NCBI RefSeq assembly: GCF_016894385.1
Contig: NZ_CP069811.1
Coordinates: 472,501 to 536,500 of the forward strand
Direction: 5' to 3'
Length of the DNA stretch: 64,000 nt
Source of the DNA: Cupriavidus oxalaticus
Lineage (GTDB): Bacteria; Pseudomonadota; Gammaproteobacteria; Burkholderiales; Burkholderiaceae
The notes under the pieces are model-generated. The model did not search any database, was not told where the DNA came from, and saw only the letters and a program-made list of their open reading frames with translations. Position 1 is the first letter of the stretch. Each line of letters begins with the position of its first letter. The translations under genes and the position numbers were made by a program. This document shows positions 23,336-29,488 of the stretch, one piece after another.

Positions 23336-24433
23336 TCAGAACTTGTGGCGCATCCCCATCACGGCGCCGAACTGGCTGGTGCCGGCCGGGCCGATGGACG
23401 CCGAGGCGCCGTTCAGGCCGATGCGCGAGCCATCGTCATTGTGGATGTATGCCACCTGGGCGTAGACGTCGGTGCGCCTGGACAATGCGTAGTCGAGCAG
23501 CACGGCCGTGCTCCACGCGTCGCCGTTGCGGCGCCGGTCGTTCAGCAGATAGCCAGCGCCGCTGAGCGACAGCGCGGGGGTGAGCTGGTAGCCGGCGCCG
23601 ATCCAGAACAGGTCGGTACGCCGGGCGGGCACGGCGGCCGTGGCGCCGATGTCGCCATTGAGCCAGCGGTATCCGGCATACACCCTGGCGTTCGCGAACC
23701 GGTAGGCGGCGGCAACGGCAAGCCGCCGGTCCTTCTGCGAGGAATTCTGCCCCGCGATGCCGGCGGTGCCTTGCTGCTCGTCGTAGATCACCGTGAAGCC
23801 GGCGTTGCCGGCGCTGTACTCGATGCCGCCGCTCAGCGCGCGGTCGCTCTTCATGTCGCCCGGCACCTCGCCCGCCACCGCGCCGCCGCCCAGCGAAGTG
23901 CCGCGCGCGAACGAGTACAGGCCCGTGACCGTCAGTGCGCCGAACTTGCCGACGTACTTGGCCGTGTTGTCGTAGCGCCCGGCGGTCATCGCATCCATCA
24001 TGAAGACCGAATAGCGCGGGGACACCGCCATGGCATCGTAGCGGATCAGGATGTCATACAGGATATTGTTCTGGCGGCCCAGCGTCGCGCGGCCATATGG
24101 CGACGACATCCCGACGAATGCCTGGCGCCCGAACAGCCGCCCGCCCTGCGCGGCGGTGCCGGCGTCGATGTCGAAGCCATTCTCGAGCACGAACAGTGCC
24201 TGCACGCTGCCGCCGAGGTCTTCGCTGCCGCGGATGCCCCAGCGCGAGCCGGACAGGTTGCCCGATGTCATGCGCGTCAGGCTGTTGCCGTTGGCATCGG
24301 CGTGCGTCAGGAACTCGATGCCGGCATCGGCCACGCCATAGAGCGTGACCGAGGCTTGCGCCTGCGCGGCGCCGGCGGCGAGGATGCCGGCGGCCAGGAT
24401 GATGTGTCGAAGCAGGGAATGGTGTTGGCTCAT
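23336..24433 (-). CDS. Outer-membrane porin (Gram-negative general porin family)
   Basis: 365 residues from ATG 24433. The signal peptide ends at AAQAQA; the mature protein opens SVTLYGVADAGIEF, as in beta-proteobacterial trimeric porins, and ends with GMRHKF, the terminal Phe needed for barrel assembly. SRWGIRGSEDLGGSVQALFVLENGFD and GRQAFVGMSSPYGRATLGRQ are typical strands and the constriction loop region. It would let small anions through the outer membrane. It lies downstream of and in line with the Bug gene (247 bp gap) and the fusion enzyme, so it may belong to the same uptake system, but it could have its own promoter. Confidence 0.92.
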   Translation of the reverse strand: MSQHHSLLRHIILAAGILAAGAAQAQASVTLYGVADAGIEFLTHADANGNSLTRMTSGNLSGSRWGIRGSEDLGGSVQALFVLENGFDIDAGTAAQGGRLFGRQAFVGMSSPYGRATLGRQNNILYDILIRYDAMAVSPRYSVFMMDAMTAGRYDNTAKYVGKFGALTVTGLYSFARGTSLGGGAVAGEVPGDMKSDRALSGGIEYSAGNAGFTVIYDEQQGTAGIAGQNSSQKDRRLAVAAAYRFANARVYAGYRWLNGDIGATAAVPARRTDLFWIGAGYQLTPALSLSGAGYLLNDRRRNGDAWSTAVLLDYALSRRTDVYAQVAYIHNDDGSRIGLNGASASIGPAGTSQFGAVMGMRHKF

Positions 24434-24680
24434 GTTGTCGATGTTCTTGTACTTCTTGTGTTCTGGTACTGGATGCGCCGGTCGCTGTCGAAAGTCCTGT
24501 CCCCCCGCCCGGAATCGGGCGCACGCGGCCATTGCCTGACGGACGATGCCAGGACGCAGGGACGAACGCGCGCTCACGGGGGCCGGTATGCGCCCGTGCA
24601 GGAACGATCCAGGTCGGGATGTCGGGGTCGGGATGTCGGGGGGAGGGGCCTGCTGTTACCTGGCCGGTGCCCCGGGATGG

Positions 24681-25673
24681 TCAGTCGACGAGCAGATTGA
24701 TCTTCGTCGCGAATTTCTGCCAGCGATCGATATCGGAGGTCACCAGCTTCTGGAATTCGGCAGGGGTGCTCGTGGTCGTGGCAAAGCCGAGCTGCTCCAG
24801 CGAAGACCTGACCTCGGGCTTGGCGATGGCCCTGGCGATTTCCGTGTTCAGCTTCTGCACGATTTCGGGCGGCGTGTTCGCCGGGGCCAGGATGCCGAAC
24901 CATTGGTCGACGTCATAGCCGGGGATGCCAAGCTCGCTCACGCTCGGCACGTCGGGCAGGAACGGCGAACGTGCCTTCGACGTGACGGCCAGCGCGCGCA
25001 ACCTGTTGCTTTTCAGGTAGGGCATGGTGTTGGTCAGCGTATTGATGCTGACATCCGCCTGGTTGCCGAGCACGTCGGCGATGGCGGGTGCACAACCCTT
25101 GTACGGCACGTGAAGCATAGCGATCCTTGCCGAGACCTTCAGCAATTCACCGGCCAGATGCTGGGGCGTGCCGTTACCGCACGAGGCATAGCTGGGGGGT
25201 GAGGCGCTCTTGCCCGTCGCCAGCAAGTCGTTGAAGGTGCGGATCTTCGAGAGCGATGGCACGGCGATCACCGACGGCACCGAAGCAAAGGTGATGACGG
25301 CGCTGAAATCGGACTTCGGGTTGAACTGCAGCTTCTTGAAGACGCTCGGGTTGATGGCGAAGCTGCTGTTGACGATCAGCAGCGTGTAGCCGTCGGCAGG
25401 GCTCTTGGCGACGAACTCGGCACCGATATTGCCGCTGGCGCCCGGCCGGTTGTCGACGACTACCTGCTGCCCCAGCGATTTGCTGATGTCCGCCCCGATC
25501 AGGCGCGCAAGGGAATCGGTCCCGCCTCCGGCCGGGAACGTCACCACCATGCGGATGGGCTTCTGCGGGAAGGTACTGGCGATATTGGCCTCGGCGCGCC
25601 CGGGCAGGGTGCCCAGGCTCCCTGCGACAAACAGGAGCGATGCCAGGCTGTTGACGACGGATAGGGGTCTCAT
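24681..25673 (-). CDS. Bug-family periplasmic binding protein (TctC-type), second copy
   Basis: 330 residues with a signal peptide (hydrophobic 8-25, cleavage near RAEA). The mature start FPQKPIRMVVTFPAGGGTDSLARLIG is diagnostic for Bug proteins, as is QQVVVDNRPGASGNIGAEFVAKSPADGYTLL. It starts 43 bp after the stop of the PhnN/phosphorylase fusion on the same strand, so the two should share a transcript. Bug proteins bind carboxylates; some of the family in Bordetella are reported to bind nicotinate-type pyridines, which would fit the nearby NadC gene. No TctAB genes adjoin. The ligand is inferred, not seen. Confidence 0.9.
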   Translation of the reverse strand: MRPLSVVNSLASLLFVAGSLGTLPGRAEANIASTFPQKPIRMVVTFPAGGGTDSLARLIGADISKSLGQQVVVDNRPGASGNIGAEFVAKSPADGYTLLIVNSSFAINPSVFKKLQFNPKSDFSAVITFASVPSVIAVPSLSKIRTFNDLLATGKSASPPSYASCGNGTPQHLAGELLKVSARIAMLHVPYKGCAPAIADVLGNQADVSINTLTNTMPYLKSNRLRALAVTSKARSPFLPDVPSVSELGIPGYDVDQWFGILAPANTPPEIVQKLNTEIARAIAKPEVRSSLEQLGFATTTSTPAEFQKLVTSDIDRWQKFATKINLLVD

Positions 25674-25716
25674 GGATATGCCTCGTCGGTTAGGTTGAAG
25701 GAAGGGGAAATGCTGG

Positions 25717-27522
25717 TCAATCGGGATCTATACGCACTGCCTGATGGCACTCGCCACCAACGCGGACCAGTGCCGCTGCCGCCTCAAGTGCTGCAGCGGA
25801 GTCGGCGTGGATACGGTAGAGGGGTTGCCCCGGCGCCACCTGCGCACCGACCGTGCACAGCAGGTCGATGCCTGCGCCCGCGGCGCGCGGTGCCCCGGCA
25901 GCGCGCGCCACGCCGGAAATCTGCAAGCCCTCGATGGCCGTCACCTGGCCCCGCGTGGTGGCGGCCACGATCCGCGTATGCGTACCCGGCGCCACCGGGC
26001 GGGAGCGAATGCCCTGCGCTGCGGCGATCCGGTCGAACGCGGCCTTCGCCTTGCCTTCGTGCAGCAGCGCAGCCGCAATGCGCATGCCCTGTTCGGCGCA
26101 GCCCACGCGGGGATCGAAGGCGATGATCTCGCCGGCAAAGCGCAGGGCTTTTTCACGCAGGTCCGCGGGAGCCGCGGGATCGTTGTCGAGCACCAGCCGG
26201 ACGTCGCGCACTTCCAGCGCGGGGCCGATGCCACGGCCGATCGGGTGGCTGCCGTCCGTGACCAGCGCGCGCACGTGCAGGCCCAGTCCCTTGCCGACGT
26301 GTTCGAACAGTGCGCCGAGCGCCTCGGCGTCGGCGCGCGTCGCCAGCTTGGCCTGCGGCCCGAAGGGCAGATCGACGATGACATGGGTCGCGCCGGCGGT
26401 GAACTTCTTCGACAGGATCGATGCCACCGACCAGCGTCGCGAATCGAGGCGCAGGGGCCGGGTGATCGCGTTCATCACGTCGTCGATCACGGAATGGTTC
26501 AGGCGTCCGTTCCACGCAATGCATGCGCGCGCCTGCGCCACGCATCGGCGCACGTCCTCGTGCGTCAGGTCGACCCGCGCGATGGTTTCCATCGCATCGG
26601 CAGTGCCGGCAGCAGATGTGATCGCGCGCGATGACGTCTTGGGCATGGCCAGGCCGTACGCCGCGACAATCGGCACCACCACCAGCGTGATGCGGCTGCC
26701 GGGAACGCCGCCCATTGAGTGCTTGTCGACGACAAGCGGCTCGTCCCAGTCGATGCGGGGTGTGAAGGCCGTCCGTGCGCGTGCCAGCGCCACCACTTCG
26801 GCGTCGGTCAGCGTGCGGGTTGCGGCAATGAGGAAGTCGGTCAGCTCTGCCTCGGTGTACCGCCCGGCGATGGCGTCTTGCAGCACGGCAACATAGGCAG
26901 CTTCGTCGAGCGGCTCGCCGCGCAGCTTGGCCATGAGGTTGGCGCGGCTGGCCGGCTGCCTGGTGGCGGATGCACTGGTGCCGCTTTGCAGCGCTTCGAC
27001 AAAGCGTGCCATGCCCGCTTCCAGCGTGCTGTCGTTTGACACCGTGATGCAGGCGACCTCGGGAGGCATCGATACTCCCGCTCGCGCCACCCGCCTGGCG
27101 ACCTGGTCGCCCGATTCACGTCCGCGCGCGCTGATGCGCTGTGCCAGCACCTCCTGCGGTGCCGTCACCAGGATGACCACGAAGCGCGGCAAGCGGGCGG
27201 CGAGGTCGGCGACGACGCCGCGCGAGCCATTGGCTACGACGTTGCGCCCGCGTTCCAGCTCGCGCATCAGCGACATGGGCAATCCATAGCGAAGGTCGTG
27301 TGCGTCCCAGGTGACCAGGAACTCGCCCCTTCGCTGGCGCCGTGCGAACTCGGCTTCCGTAACGCCCTCGTGATCCTCGCCGGCCGACCCGCCCGGGCGC
27401 GTGATGACGCGCCGTGCGAAGACATAGTCGTCATCGAGCGAGGCGCGCGCACCGTCGATCAGGGAATCCTTGCCAGCGCCACTGGGCCCCACAACGAGAA
27501 AGAATGTGCCGGTTGCCTTCAT
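25717..27522 (-). CDS. Fused ribose-1,5-bisphosphate kinase (PhnN) and AMP-phosphorylase-type nucleotide phosphorylase
   Basis: 601 residues in two parts. Residues 1-180 are a PhnN/guanylate-kinase-like domain: Walker [12 protein letters not shown] at 11-21, RRVITRP and [15 protein letters not shown]. PhnN makes PRPP from ribose 1,5-bisphosphate and ATP. After an Ala/Ser-rich linker (181-195), residues 196-601 are a thymidine-phosphorylase-fold domain whose signature [19 protein letters not shown] (265-283) and [18 protein letters not shown] (295-312) matches the archaeal AMP phosphorylase branch, not E. coli DeoA. That enzyme converts NMP plus phosphate to base and ribose 1,5-bisphosphate. 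The fusion therefore links two consecutive steps, NMP to PRPP. The archaeal N-terminal domain is replaced by the kinase. No phn C-P lyase genes are near. Confidence 0.88.
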
Positions 27523-27528
27523 GATTAC

Positions 27529-27541
27529 CTTAGATGTCGAA
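27529..27541 (-). promoter_or_regulatory. Operator copy downstream of the fusion-gene promoter
   Basis: CTTAGATGTCGAA (plus-strand reading) lies 7-19 bp before the start codon and overlaps the likely AAGG ribosome site. It is the inverted counterpart of the site at 27587-27599 and matches the two sites before nadC. A bound repressor would block clearance or translation start. Confidence 0.7.
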
Positions 27542-27552
27542 GTTGTATGGCT

Positions 27553-27580
27553 ATGCTAGCACCGGCCGGGTGGGTGTCAA
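27553..27580 (-). promoter_or_regulatory. Promoter of the fusion gene
   Basis: On the minus strand: TTGACA at 27580-27575, 16-bp spacer, TAGCAT at 27558-27553. The same TTGACA-N16-(-10) unit with identical flanks precedes nadC. It is bracketed by two operator copies. Confidence 0.7.
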
Positions 27581-27586
27581 GATAAG

Positions 27587-27599
27587 TTCGATGTCTAAG
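27587..27599 (-). promoter_or_regulatory. Operator copy upstream of the fusion-gene -35
   Basis: TTCGATGTCTAAG, 6 bp upstream of the -35 box. Consensus of the four sites, read in one orientation, is CTTAGA-N3-CGAA. The core TTAGA-NN-TCGAA is an imperfect dyad of the size a MarR dimer covers. Confidence 0.7.
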
Positions 27600-27685
27600 G
27601 TAATGCAAGCAATGGGCCATCCCCCGCAAATCCAGTGTGTACGCGGGATTCGCATGGTCGTAGGGGAAAACACGGGTAACCGCAT

Positions 27686-27720
27686 GCGCGCTGCCGGTGC
27701 CTCATGCATCGGCAGCGCGC
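27686..27720. repeat. Long hairpin in the fusion/marR divergent region
   Basis: Perfect 11-bp arms GCGCGCTGCCG (27686-27696) and CGGCAGCGCGC (27710-27720). Pairing continues inward (GTGC with GCAT) to leave a 5-nt loop. It lies midway in the 349-bp gap between the divergent genes and is unlike the paired operators. It may insulate the two promoters or fold in the marR leader. Confidence 0.55.
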
Positions 27721-27871
27721 ACGGTGCACTAATGGAGTGAATACTACATAGAGGGGGCGGGCGGTCCGGGCGTGGTGCCGGATGCGCGAGCGCGCGAGGC
27801 GCTATCATGTGCACTGTCGCTTGCACCGCATCATGGTGCCGCATGCATACCTTTCATTTCCCGTCACGACT

Positions 27872-28417
27872 ATGGCCACAAGGAAGCCGGATGCTCCGGT
27901 CAACATCACGCCGCCGGATGAAGCCGATGAAGAACGGCTTGCCCACCTGGTAAAGGACGCCGCGCGCGCCTATATCCGGGCGCTGCAACTGCGCCTGGCG
28001 GAACATTCGGTTTCATACGGCCACTGGACCATCCTGCGTATCCTGTGGCGCCATGACGGCCTGTCGCAGCGCGAGTTGAGCGAGCGGGCCGGCGTGACCG
28101 AGCCGACCACCTTTGCGGCGGTGAAGGCGCTGGAAGCGCTGGGCTATGTGGAACGCACGCACCTTCCCGGCAACAGGAAGAAGGTGCACGTGTTCCTGAG
28201 CAAGACCGGGCGCGCGTTGCGCCGCAAGCTCGAACCGCTGGCCACCGAGGTCAATGAACTCAGCGTGGAGGGCGTGAGCGAAGAGGATGTGCTGACCACG
28301 CGCCGCGTGTTGATCACGATCGCCAAGCGCCTGGTCGCCGACGAGATCGCGTCGGCTGAGAACGGCCGGCGGGTGCCGTCCACGCAGGAGGTGGGGCGGC
28401 TGCTGTCGGACCTGTAG
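27872..28417 (+). CDS. MarR-family regulator, probable controller of the fusion gene and nadC
   Basis: 181 residues from ATG 27872. The winged helix spans about 55-120: GLSQRELSERAGVTEPTTFAAVKALEALGYVERTHLPGNRKKVHVFLSKTG, with the wing Arg/Lys. Long flanking helices (about 20-50 and 125-165) would make the MarR dimer. The C-terminal 20 residues extend past the usual length. MarR proteins mostly repress and are released by small ligands, often aromatic acids. It sits between the two genes whose promoters share four copies of one operator; it lacks that motif before its own start, so it is probably not autoregulated through it. Assignment of this regulator to those sites is inference. Confidence 0.88.
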   Translation: MATRKPDAPVNITPPDEADEERLAHLVKDAARAYIRALQLRLAEHSVSYGHWTILRILWRHDGLSQRELSERAGVTEPTTFAAVKALEALGYVERTHLPGNRKKVHVFLSKTGRALRRKLEPLATEVNELSVEGVSEEDVLTTRRVLITIAKRLVADEIASAENGRRVPSTQEVGRLLSDL

Positions 28418-28435
28418 CGGCAGTCGGCTGGCGCC

Positions 28436-28472
28436 AATGAAAAGGCCCCCGTCGGCCAGGCCGGCGAGGGTG
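28436..28472 (-). terminator. Probable terminator of nadC
   Basis: Read on minus, CCCTCGCCGGCC pairs with GGCCGACGGGGG (two G-U type pairs) and is followed by CCTTTTC. It lies 73 bp past the nadC stop in the convergent gap with marR and might serve both. Confidence 0.5.
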
Positions 28473-28544
28473 AATGCCTTGGGTAGAAGGCGTGAAACCG
28501 ATGTCGGGGCGCCTGGGCCCCGGGGCCCAGGCAGGCGCGATGCG

Positions 28545-29378
28545 TCAGGCGTCGTCCAGTCCGATATCCACGGCCGGTGCCGACTGCGTGATCTTGCTCG
28601 TCGAGATGTAGTCCACGCCGGTTTCCGCCACGGCCCGGATCGTTTCCAGGCGAATGCCGCCCGAGGCCTCGACCTTGGTCCGGCCATTGACGATCTGCAC
28701 GGCCTCTTTCATGTCGGCCACCGACATGTTGTCCAGCATGATCACGTCGACACCGGCGGCCAGGGCCTCGTGCACCTGCTCCAGCCGGTCGCATTCCACT
28801 TCCAGTTTCGTCAGCACCGGCAGCTTGCGGCGCACGCGTTCGACGGCGGCGGCGATGCTGCCGCACACAGAGATGTGGTTGTCCTTGATCATCACGCCAT
28901 TGTCCAGGCTCAGCCGGTGGTTCAGGCCACCGCCGCAGGTCACCGCATGCTTTTCCAGCGCGCGCAGGCCTGGCGTGGTCTTGCGGCTGTCGATCAGGCG
29001 CGCTTTGGTATGCGCAATGGCCTGGGCATAGGTGGCCGTGAGGTTGGCGATGCCGCACAGGCGCTGCATGATGTTCAGCGCGGTGCGCTCGGCCGTCAGC
29101 ACGCTGCGCGCATTGCCGCTCACGTTCAGCAGCACCGCCCCTTTGGCGACCTTGTCGCCGTCCGCGACGCGCACGTCGACAGACAGCGTGGGATCGTAGC
29201 GGGCGAAGATACGTGCCGCCACGTCGATGCCGGCGATGATCATCGGCTCGCGGGCGTTCATGCAGAAGGTGCCGGTCTCACCCGGTTCGATCATGGTCTG
29301 GACGGTCAAGTCGCAGATGCCGATGTCTTCGGTCAGCCAGAGGTCGATCAGCTTGTCGGTGGCAAAGAGGTCGTACAT
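28545..29378 (-). CDS. nadC: Quinolinate phosphoribosyltransferase (decarboxylating), NadC-type
   Basis: 277 residues. The N-terminal domain begins WLTEDIGICDLTVQTM. The barrel has the family core SRKTTPGLRALEKHAVTCGGGLNHRLSLDNGVMIKDNH with the quinolinate-binding Arg and Lys residues, then EVECDRLEQ and ASGGI. NadC makes nicotinate mononucleotide, CO2 and PPi from quinolinate and PRPP. Not flanked by nadA or nadB, which usually accompany the biosynthetic copy, and controlled by the same operators as the fusion enzyme; so it is probably a special-purpose paralogue. ModD-type pyrophosphorylases are related but lack this motif spacing. A housekeeping nadC should exist elsewhere. Confidence 0.88.
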   Translation of the reverse strand: MYDLFATDKLIDLWLTEDIGICDLTVQTMIEPGETGTFCMNAREPMIIAGIDVAARIFARYDPTLSVDVRVADGDKVAKGAVLLNVSGNARSVLTAERTALNIMQRLCGIANLTATYAQAIAHTKARLIDSRKTTPGLRALEKHAVTCGGGLNHRLSLDNGVMIKDNHISVCGSIAAAVERVRRKLPVLTKLEVECDRLEQVHEALAAGVDVIMLDNMSVADMKEAVQIVNGRTKVEASGGIRLETIRAVAETGVDYISTSKITQSAPAVDIGLDDA

Positions 29379-29416: not shown

Positions 29417-29429
29417 CTTAGAGATCGAA
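29417..29429 (-). promoter_or_regulatory. Operator copy downstream of the nadC promoter
   Basis: CTTAGAGATCGAA, 12 bp downstream of the -10. It is the same motif and position as at the fusion gene (11 bp there). Confidence 0.7.
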
Positions 29430-29475: not shown

Positions 29476-29488
29476 TTCGACCTCTAAG
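29476..29488 (-). promoter_or_regulatory. Operator copy upstream of the nadC -35
   Basis: TTCGACCTCTAAG, 6 bp upstream of the -35, as at the fusion gene. Centres of the two nadC operators are 59 bp apart, against 58 bp at the fusion gene, which would allow looping or joint occlusion of RNA polymerase. Confidence 0.7.

Follow-up and report, generated by a model that had tools for sequence, protein, structure and literature searches.

The window analyzed here, a stretch of 64,000 nucleotides from Cupriavidus oxalaticus, encodes at positions 24681 to 29378 a Bug27-type binding protein, a fusion of PhnN to an AMP-phosphorylase-type domain, a MarR regulator in divergent orientation, and an additional copy of NadC (NadC2) (Table 1). 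ORF and profile checks of the window bore out all of the gene positions claimed in a preliminary description of the locus. The true start of the MarR gene is probably the ATG at 27872, because automatic ORF calling yields 181 amino acids in four relatives. The Bug gene neighbours the fusion in each of the 14 loci from the same genus (L001 to L014), while the porin was matched in only L001, L011, and L013 of these loci, which are short downstream. The earlier proposal that the Bug protein and the porin hint at import held for the Bug protein, which has Bug27 as its nearest PDB relative, and conserved membership of the porin was not supported.

Table 1. Coordinates of the genes, domains, and operator copies at the locus.
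Feature	Position	Strand	Basis or remark
Gram-negative porin, downstream, accessory at most	23336..24577	-	Pfam Porin_4
Bug27-type periplasmic binding protein, TctC family, predicted quinolinate receptor	24681..25673	-	Pfam TctC, E 2e-66
Fusion, 601 aa: PhnN domain (~5-179) and AMP-phosphorylase-type domain (~190-601)	25717..27522	-	Profiles
AMP-phosphorylase-type domain, fusion residues 190-601	25720..26955	-	NadC-linked signature including N338, H343, N351, T354, R363, W364
PhnN (ribose 1,5-bisphosphokinase) domain, fusion residues 5-185	26968..27510	-	TIGR02322; Walker A GPSGAGKD
Operator copy 1, before fusion, TTAGATGTCGAA	27530..27541	+	Kept in 15/15 loci L047-L061
Operator copy 2, before fusion	27587..27598	-	Pattern search; kept in L047-L061
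MarR-family regulator	27872..28417 (ORF open from 27782)	+	Pfam MarR, E 2.6e-14
NadC2, quinolinate phosphoribosyltransferase paralogue tied to fusion	28545..29378	-	TIGR00078, 317.6 bits
Operator copy 3, before nadC2	29418..29429	+	Pattern search; kept in L047-L061
Operator copy 4, before nadC2	29476..29487	-	Pattern search; kept in L047-L061

The exact sequence TTAGANNTCGAA has four copies in the whole 6.69-Mb genome, two preceding the fusion and two preceding nadC2, with spacings within the pairs of 57 and 58 bp. The wider pattern that was searched, TTAKANNTCGAA, gave five matches genome-wide versus eight for the reversed control. All four exact sites are present in each of the 15 loci L047 to L061, comprising 14 loci titled Cupriavidus and one titled Burkholderiaceae bacterium 16. 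The shared operators suggested earlier are therefore real and more telling than had been claimed, since the exact sequence occurs only before the fusion and nadC2 and recurs in every one of these loci. The MarR protein would repress both transcripts via the paired operators (predicted binding, putative ligand).

NadC2 and the fusion form one unit. The fusion was found in 14 of the 36 same-genus genomes and in none of the 24 other-genus genomes, and NadC2 (at least 87% identity) is confined to exactly those 14 fusion-bearing genomes. Among 80 contig loci retained from 129 candidates, 62 are fusion loci, and NadC2 adjoins the fusion in 59 of these, the three misses being contig edges; both genes are present in 62/65 fusion loci. 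They stand in tandem with a gap of 2 to 46 nt in 47 loci, and are about 1 kb apart with the MarR gene in between in the 15 loci L047 to L061. Outside Cupriavidus, the pair is tandem and the importers vary. The distance correlation between NadC2 and the fusion was 0.89 over 54 loci, a value that ignores ancestry. The preliminary description had named a lack of co-occurrence of the fusion, NadC, and the MarR gene in other genomes as grounds for abandoning its proposal; co-occurrence was seen, and the proposal stands. Transporter genes of four types adjoin the pair across lineages, which together with the dedicated, linked NadC2 suggests uptake of an external substrate. Six stretches of viral contigs matched a pattern, and none of them encoded a relative.

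The fusion is a predicted nicotinate mononucleotide (NaMN) phosphorylase and PRPP-regenerating kinase. Its residues 5 to 179 pass the PhnN model TIGR02322 (180 bits; cut-off, 156), and the P-loop GPSGAGKD is unchanged in 26/26 aligned fusions. A role in phosphonate use was set aside, given a separate PhnN-like match (42% identity) on C2 of the same genome and a profile scan that detected no C-P lyase components among six window proteins. A fold search with the fusion returned a list filled by phosphorylase-domain matches, with the PhnN domain scarcely represented. The fusion protein exceeds the cut-off of PRK04350 “thymidine phosphorylase” (643 against 434) and fails both the AMP phosphorylase equivalog TIGR03327 (347 bits; cut-off, 535) and TIGR02645 (400; cut-off, 434.6). 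At 14 positions, the phosphorylase half departs from every one of the 13 stand-alone homologues; six of these positions, picked by location, lie near the inferred base pocket and the other eight elsewhere in the sequence. The six (N338, H343, N351, T354, R363, and W364) occur in 72 to 74 of 74 fused rows, which contain near-duplicates from the same genomes, and in 0/13 stand-alone rows; the AMP phosphorylase of Thermococcus lacks them as well. They are near the residues aligned with Y199, R202, S217, and K221 of human thymidine phosphorylase (TP), which we take to have active-site roles. In a structure model, four of the six share two helices with these TP-aligned residues, and we infer that all six substitutions lie near the base pocket. 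As judged from the alignment, the fused domain lacks residues common to the stand-alone and archaeal enzymes. We know of no described NaMN phosphorylase activity.

NadC2 passes TIGR00078 well above the cut-off of 198.4 bits. Eight quinolinate/PRPP residues, presumably the set from Mycobacterium tuberculosis NadC, were checked (R98, R132, K133, H154, R155, K165, E195, and D216), and all are kept in 71/71 NadC2 rows. Its signature differs from that of other NadC rows, for example at residue 147, which is mostly T/A, not R/K. NadC2 as the only NadC was rejected: it is about 40% identical to another NadC that is encoded beside nadA in the same genome. As noted earlier, no nadA is nearby; the sole nadA match of the genome adjoins that other nadC on the other replicon. 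NadA is present in 36/36 same-genus genomes, and a further NadC in 14/14 same-genus carriers. The best PDB match of the Bug protein is Bug27 (2qpq, 351.7 bits; next, 205.1), which is reported to bind quinolinate with a Kd of about 0.1 uM (PMC11452294). With the pocket residues listed in that paper mapped by offset only (30, then 29, one of two offsets applying to each position), G21, T22, S74, C136, Q142, C165, and T183 match the Bug protein of the window, N228 differs, and F12 is ambiguous.

In 14/65 fusion loci, genes from one or the other of two unrelated pathways of nicotinate degradation are found no more than 10 kb from the module; the other 51 have no nicotinate gene in the stretch examined, which is short in some cases. 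Loci L055, L058, and L059 carry NicC/E/D/X/F and XDH genes, L104 carries NicD (part), NicX, NicF, and XDH, and 6-hydroxynicotinate reductase (Hnr) is found in L069, L081, L093 to L096, L099, L101, L103, and L110. Because Pfam and NCBIfam neither assigned the Hnr protein to a family nor gave the nic proteins Nic names, identities were taken from annotated records and PDB sequence matches: NicX from 7cn3 (412 bits), NicC from 5eow (560 bits), NicE from 4fq7 (373 bits), enamidase from 2vun (378 bits), and Hnr from the annotation of 8/15 records among the matches listed. The genome of the window has its nic cluster on the other replicon, without the operator of the module. Some Alcaligenaceae loci adjoin TPP-enzyme and Ldh2 genes that have no evident pyridine role.

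The same association was seen across whole genomes. Either pathway marker is present in 58/60 fusion-bearing genomes (14 same-genus carriers plus 46 that were identified via contig loci) versus 9/46 module-free relatives (those of the 36 same-genus and 24 other-genus genomes that lack the module; seven NicX, two Hnr), the two groups having been sampled by different routes. The two carriers without either marker, L071 and L102, are both metagenome bins. NicX occurs in 14/14 module-bearing versus 7/22 module-free same-genus genomes (Fisher 6e-5, ancestry ignored). The other 46 carriers have Hnr in 32, NicX in 13, and one or the other in 44; in five of these 13 NicX genomes the best match extends past one stop, judged from the length to be probably the natural one, and the Hnr counts include one fragmented (G068) and one split (G085) gene. 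Matches of 30 to 45% identity, including those in G001, G023, G037, and G095, are paralogues and were excluded from the NicX counts. In Bosea and relatives, a set outside the pooled counts for which Hnr rather than NicX is the marker, Hnr is present in 22/23 genomes with the fusion versus 7/38 without it (Fisher 2e-9, ancestry ignored). 3-HAO scored above the cut-off in 6/14 module-bearing versus 3/22 module-free same-genus genomes, an association that is not clear, and endogenous quinolinate derived from 3-hydroxyanthranilate, though possible, was set aside as the sole source.

We read the observed gene content, linkage, operators, co-distribution, and conserved residues as quite probably those of a regulated front end to nicotinate catabolism, in which quinolinate is converted to nicotinate with PRPP as a recycled carrier. 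The Bug27-type protein would capture quinolinate for import, a task that a TRAP-TAXI, ABC, or MFS transporter adjoining the pair would take over elsewhere. NadC2 would convert quinolinate and PRPP to NaMN, CO2, and PPi; the phosphorylase half would split NaMN with Pi into nicotinate and ribose 1,5-bisphosphate; and the PhnN half would use ATP to rebuild PRPP from ribose 1,5-bisphosphate, which perhaps is channelled without release. In the predicted direction, the net reaction would be quinolinate + ATP + Pi to nicotinate + CO2 + ADP + PPi. Nicotinate would then enter the nic pathway in Cupriavidus and Caballeronia, and the 6-hydroxynicotinate reductase/enamidase pathway in Bosea, Alcaligenaceae, and Jezberella. 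In these soil bacteria, the quinolinate route would thus appear to feed vitamin B3 degradation. It is fairly likely that this constitutes an undescribed catabolic cycle, in which PRPP is a recycled activating carrier, NaMN phosphorylase a new activity, and the fused kinase the means of rebuilding PRPP. Literature searches, covering open PMC papers, found no published route for such a cycle, and we know of no earlier degradation route that employs PRPP catalytically, in the manner of a carrier.

The preliminary description had left open whether the phosphorylase takes NaMN or AMP, CMP, or UMP. The nicotinate-gene context, the likeness to Bug27, the eight kept NadC2 residues, and the fixed phosphorylase substitutions support the conversion of quinolinate to nicotinate, and the use of AMP, CMP, or UMP for PRPP supply is disfavoured. 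Under the latter option, these nucleotides would give ribose 1,5-bisphosphate and then PRPP, from which NadC2 would make NaMN out of imported quinolinate for NAD salvage. A Thermococcus NMP phosphorylase with AMP, CMP, and UMP as substrates has been described (PMC9700705), and PhnN has been noted as the source of the PRPP of NadC in bug27 neighbourhoods (Sorci et al. 2024, PMC11452294). We nevertheless consider NAD salvage improbable, in that 58/60 carriers are nicotinate degraders, the genus already has NadA throughout and its carriers a further NadC, and the fused domain, by its aligned residues, departs from the stand-alone and archaeal enzymes and falls below the AMP phosphorylase equivalog cut-off. 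In addition, NAD synthesis needs little quinolinate, and an ordinary PRPP synthase is enough for it.

The phosphorylase could instead degrade excess NaMN or another pyridine nucleotide and so balance NAD pools, with no net growth on quinolinate. Linkage to nicotinate pathways would suit any step from NaMN to nicotinate, and NaMN could also come from the housekeeping NadC; a dedicated second NadC linked in every contig locus that is not cut off, and four transporter types that suggest external uptake, make such turnover very unlikely. We give still less credence to a cycle in which NadC2 decarboxylates a different 2-carboxylated N-heterocycle, as might be read from its distinct signature at residue 147 and from transporters that vary by lineage, given that NadC2 keeps all eight quinolinate/PRPP residues, that the Bug protein is Bug27-like, and that the adjacent pathways begin at nicotinate, which is quinolinate decarboxylated at C2. 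If the quinolinate-to-nicotinate cycle is correct, it would yield a new enzyme activity, provide an entry for the tryptophan metabolite quinolinate into bacterial nicotinate degradation, and account for the second nadC in these genomes, with the “phnN” annotation concealing a phosphorylase domain.

The closest known systems are the Bug27/Bug69-nadC neighbourhoods. Variovorax and Jezberella have Bug27 orthologues next to nadC and “phnN”, Cupriavidus was placed in an NAD-related similarity cluster, and the neighbourhood was taken to salvage quinolinate for NAD (Sorci et al. 2024, PMC11452294). The combination of bug27, nadC, and “phnN” is common to both, and the reading differs. The Jezberella montanilacus gene at L103 is the fusion; words beginning with phosphorylase, catabol, or decarbox are absent from the main text of PMC11452294, which therefore mentions neither the second domain nor the setting in nicotinate catabolism. 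Compared with the archaeal NMP (AMP) phosphorylase of the pentose bisphosphate pathway (Thermococcus kodakarensis TK0352), the enzyme of the window is fused to PhnN, is substituted near the inferred base pocket, and has nicotinate as its predicted base; its ribose 1,5-bisphosphate would be turned into PRPP instead of feeding RuBP and Rubisco. It shares TIGR02322 and the Walker A motif with PhnN ribose 1,5-bisphosphokinase but differs in carrying a phosphorylase half and in its linkage to nadC2. NadC2 in turn shares the family cut-off and the eight checked residues with NadC but is an extra copy, linked to catabolism and not to nadA, and the regulator at the locus belongs to the MarR family. 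To our knowledge, neither the Pseudomonas-type nic pathway nor the Hnr/enamidase pathway accepts quinolinate; both use the predicted product, nicotinate, and would gain an entry step through the module.

The full fusion of a PhnN domain to an AMP-phosphorylase-type domain was identified in 14 of 36 same-genus genomes versus 0 of 24 genomes from other genera. Across these 60 genomes, NadC2, the second NadC encoded beside the fusion, was found (≥87% identity) in exactly the 14 fusion-bearing genomes, all of which possess at least one additional NadC with ~40% identity; NadA is encoded in all 36 same-genus genomes. A contig scan, using an alignment of 11 same-genus fusions as the query, retained 80 of 129 candidate loci, comprising 62 fusions, 4 stand-alone phosphorylases, and 14 PhnN-only matches. 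NadC2 accompanies 59 of the 62 contig fusions, and the three loci without it all lie at contig ends. With three plasmid records (L127, L128, and L130) that each carry both genes, the set amounts to 65 fusion loci, of which 62 encode the pair. The module proposed in the preliminary description is real and conserved. The gene for NadC2 lies immediately 5′ of the fusion at 47 loci (gap, 2 to 46 nt), and a MarR gene separates the two at 15 others (L047 to L061). Between loci, NadC2 distances are correlated with those of the phosphorylase (r = 0.89, 54 loci), a pattern that shared ancestry by itself could produce. The importer adjoining the pair differs among loci, being a Bug protein, a TRAP-TAXI system, an NMT1-type ABC system, or an MFS transporter. 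That the enzymes stay linked while the importer changes suggests an imported substrate.

The shared operators noted previously were borne out by the genome search. The 6.69-Mb genome contains four copies of TTAGANNTCGAA, every one at the module: two upstream of the fusion and two upstream of nadC2. The wider pattern TTAKANNTCGAA has one additional match, on C2, the other replicon, and the reversed pattern used as a control has 8 matches in the genome. A search of the C2 nic cluster for the exact site found none. All 15 loci with an intervening MarR gene (14 titled Cupriavidus and one Burkholderiaceae bacterium 16) keep four exact copies with the pair spacing of 57 to 58 bp unchanged. Four exact copies are also present at L135 and L136, two at L086, which is interrupted by a contig end, and two with one mismatch each upstream of nadC at Variovorax loci L088 and L127.

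In the proposed cycle, NadC2 would convert quinolinate and PRPP into nicotinate mononucleotide (NaMN), CO2, and PPi; the phosphorylase half would split NaMN with phosphate into nicotinate and ribose 1,5-bisphosphate; and the PhnN half would regenerate PRPP from the latter and ATP, releasing ADP. The opening step is the established NadC reaction (PMC11452294), and the closing step is the PhnN reaction as reported (PMC11452294, PMC9700705). NaMN phosphorolysis is the new element and is a prediction; the substrates described for the Thermococcus NMP phosphorylase are AMP, CMP, and UMP (PMC9700705). The union of the second and third steps in one protein suggests channelling between its halves.

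The best PDB match of the Bug protein is Bug27 (351.7 bits; runner-up, 205.1), for which a quinolinate Kd of 136 nM is reported (PMC11452294). Pocket residues, mapped by offset only, match at 7 of 9 positions checked, with N228 mismatched and F12 not placed. In NadC2, the eight residues examined for quinolinate/PRPP binding are all kept in 71 of 71 rows, which include near-duplicates.

Fused, stand-alone, and archaeal phosphorylases have H268, R355, S368, and K372 in common. Another 14 positions are fixed across 74 fused rows and hold other residues in Thermococcus and in the 13 stand-alone rows. Of these positions, six (N338, H343, N351, T354, R363, and W364; present in 72 to 74 of the 74 fused rows) fall in a stretch that presumably lines the base site in relatives, and the remaining eight lie elsewhere in the phosphorylase sequence. 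The six are G, L, I, E, A/G, and Q in all 13 stand-alone rows and G, L, I, E, G, and L in Thermococcus. Alignment to human TP, with positions counted by hand, pairs N351, T354, S368, and K372 with Y199, R202, S217, and K221, which we take to be active-site residues; a gap next to R202 makes R355, besides T354, a possible counterpart of that residue. The structure model places N351, T354, and R355 on one helix and R363, W364, S368, and K372 on the next. We infer that base specificity is altered in the fused phosphorylase, with R363 and H343 as candidates for gripping the nicotinate carboxylate. Longer fusions (~680 to 770 aa by automatic ORF calling) at L014/L135, L086, and the Bosea loci contain ~80 extra residues between PhnN and phosphorylase, which may represent the N-terminal domain of archaeal AMP phosphorylase; this insert is absent from most Cupriavidus, Caballeronia, and Alcaligenaceae fusions.

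Nicotinate-pathway genes were identified near the module at 14 of 65 fusion loci; at the other 51, none was found at an E value of 1e-20 within the available stretch. A nic cluster (NicC, E, D, X, F, and XDH) lies within 10 kb at Cupriavidus loci L055, L058, and L059, as do NicD (part), NicX, NicF, and XDH at Oxalobacteraceae locus L104. The 6-hydroxynicotinate reductase (Hnr), which belongs to the cluster described for nicotinate degradation in Azorhizobium and its relatives (PMC3511419), is encoded within 10 kb at L069, L081, L093 to L096, L099, L101, L103, and L110 (Alcaligenaceae, Bosea, and Jezberella), with a complete enamidase at three of these. Genes were identified through sequence matches in the PDB (NicX, 7cn3; NicC, 5eow; NicE, 4fq7; enamidase, 2vun); Hnr was identified from its annotation in 8 of 15 listed records. 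We know of no ring-opening enzyme common to the nic and Hnr pathways; nicotinate is their common starting compound.

Across whole genomes, NicX (≥73% identity) is encoded in 14 of 14 module-bearing versus 7 of 22 module-free same-genus genomes; Hnr is found in none of these 36 and in 2 of 24 other-genus genomes. Among the 46 fusion genomes other than the same-genus carriers, 32 encode Hnr and 13 NicX (overlap of 1), so that 44 have at least one marker. Pooled, either marker occurs in 58 of 60 carriers versus 9 of 46 module-free relatives. In a separate set of 61 genomes of Bosea and relatives, Hnr is present in 22 of 23 with the fusion versus 7 of 38 without. Fisher tests on the same-genus NicX counts and on the Bosea counts ignore shared ancestry. 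The module therefore nearly always resides in a nicotinate degrader, and many degraders are without it, as expected for an optional entry route. Collectively, the earlier quinolinate-to-nicotinate reading is well supported by genomic context, with the phosphorylase substrate predicted.

An FRG-domain protein of ~260 to 280 aa recurs close to the pair, at most a few genes away, in several lineages; each of the three members scanned matches PF08867. Proteins of cluster c16, a methyl-accepting chemotaxis receptor with one Cache domain judging from the single member scanned (L062), are encoded near the module at L062 to L066, L072, and L115 (Caballeronia type) and L051 and L052 (Cupriavidus), and perhaps mediate chemotaxis toward a pyridine carboxylate. 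A third NadC, ~40% identical to NadC2, is encoded near genes that, judged by eye, resemble those for a MarR relative, a Bug protein, a GFO/IDH-type protein, and a Rieske-type oxygenase; this may be another pyridine- or phthalate-like route. Stand-alone AMP-phosphorylase-type proteins occur in gammaproteobacteria (L105 to L108), followed at L106 to L108 by a conserved ~300-aa gene (cluster c112). In betaproteobacterial bins (L111 to L113), PhnN occurs alone, with no nadC2 or phosphorylase within the stretch, amid LIV-type ABC, TPP-enzyme, and Ldh2 genes as at some Alcaligenaceae fusion loci.

Loci and positions of additional features
Feature	Loci	Position
FRG-domain protein	L066, L067, L068, L069, L072, L079, L083, L084, L088, L127	
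Locus of third NadC	L133	G000:C2:2027000-2038000
Third nadC	L133	~2032178-2032978

A search of the open PMC literature found no description of the cycle. In Variovorax and Jezberella, Sorci et al. (2024) found bug27 adjoining nadC and phnN, neighborhoods that they tie to PRPP supply and NAD metabolism (PMC11452294); the main text of that article contains no word starting with phosphorylase, catabol, or decarbox. The Jezberella montanilacus gene analyzed here (L103) is the fusion, and the fusion on a Variovorax plasmid is likewise annotated "phnN."
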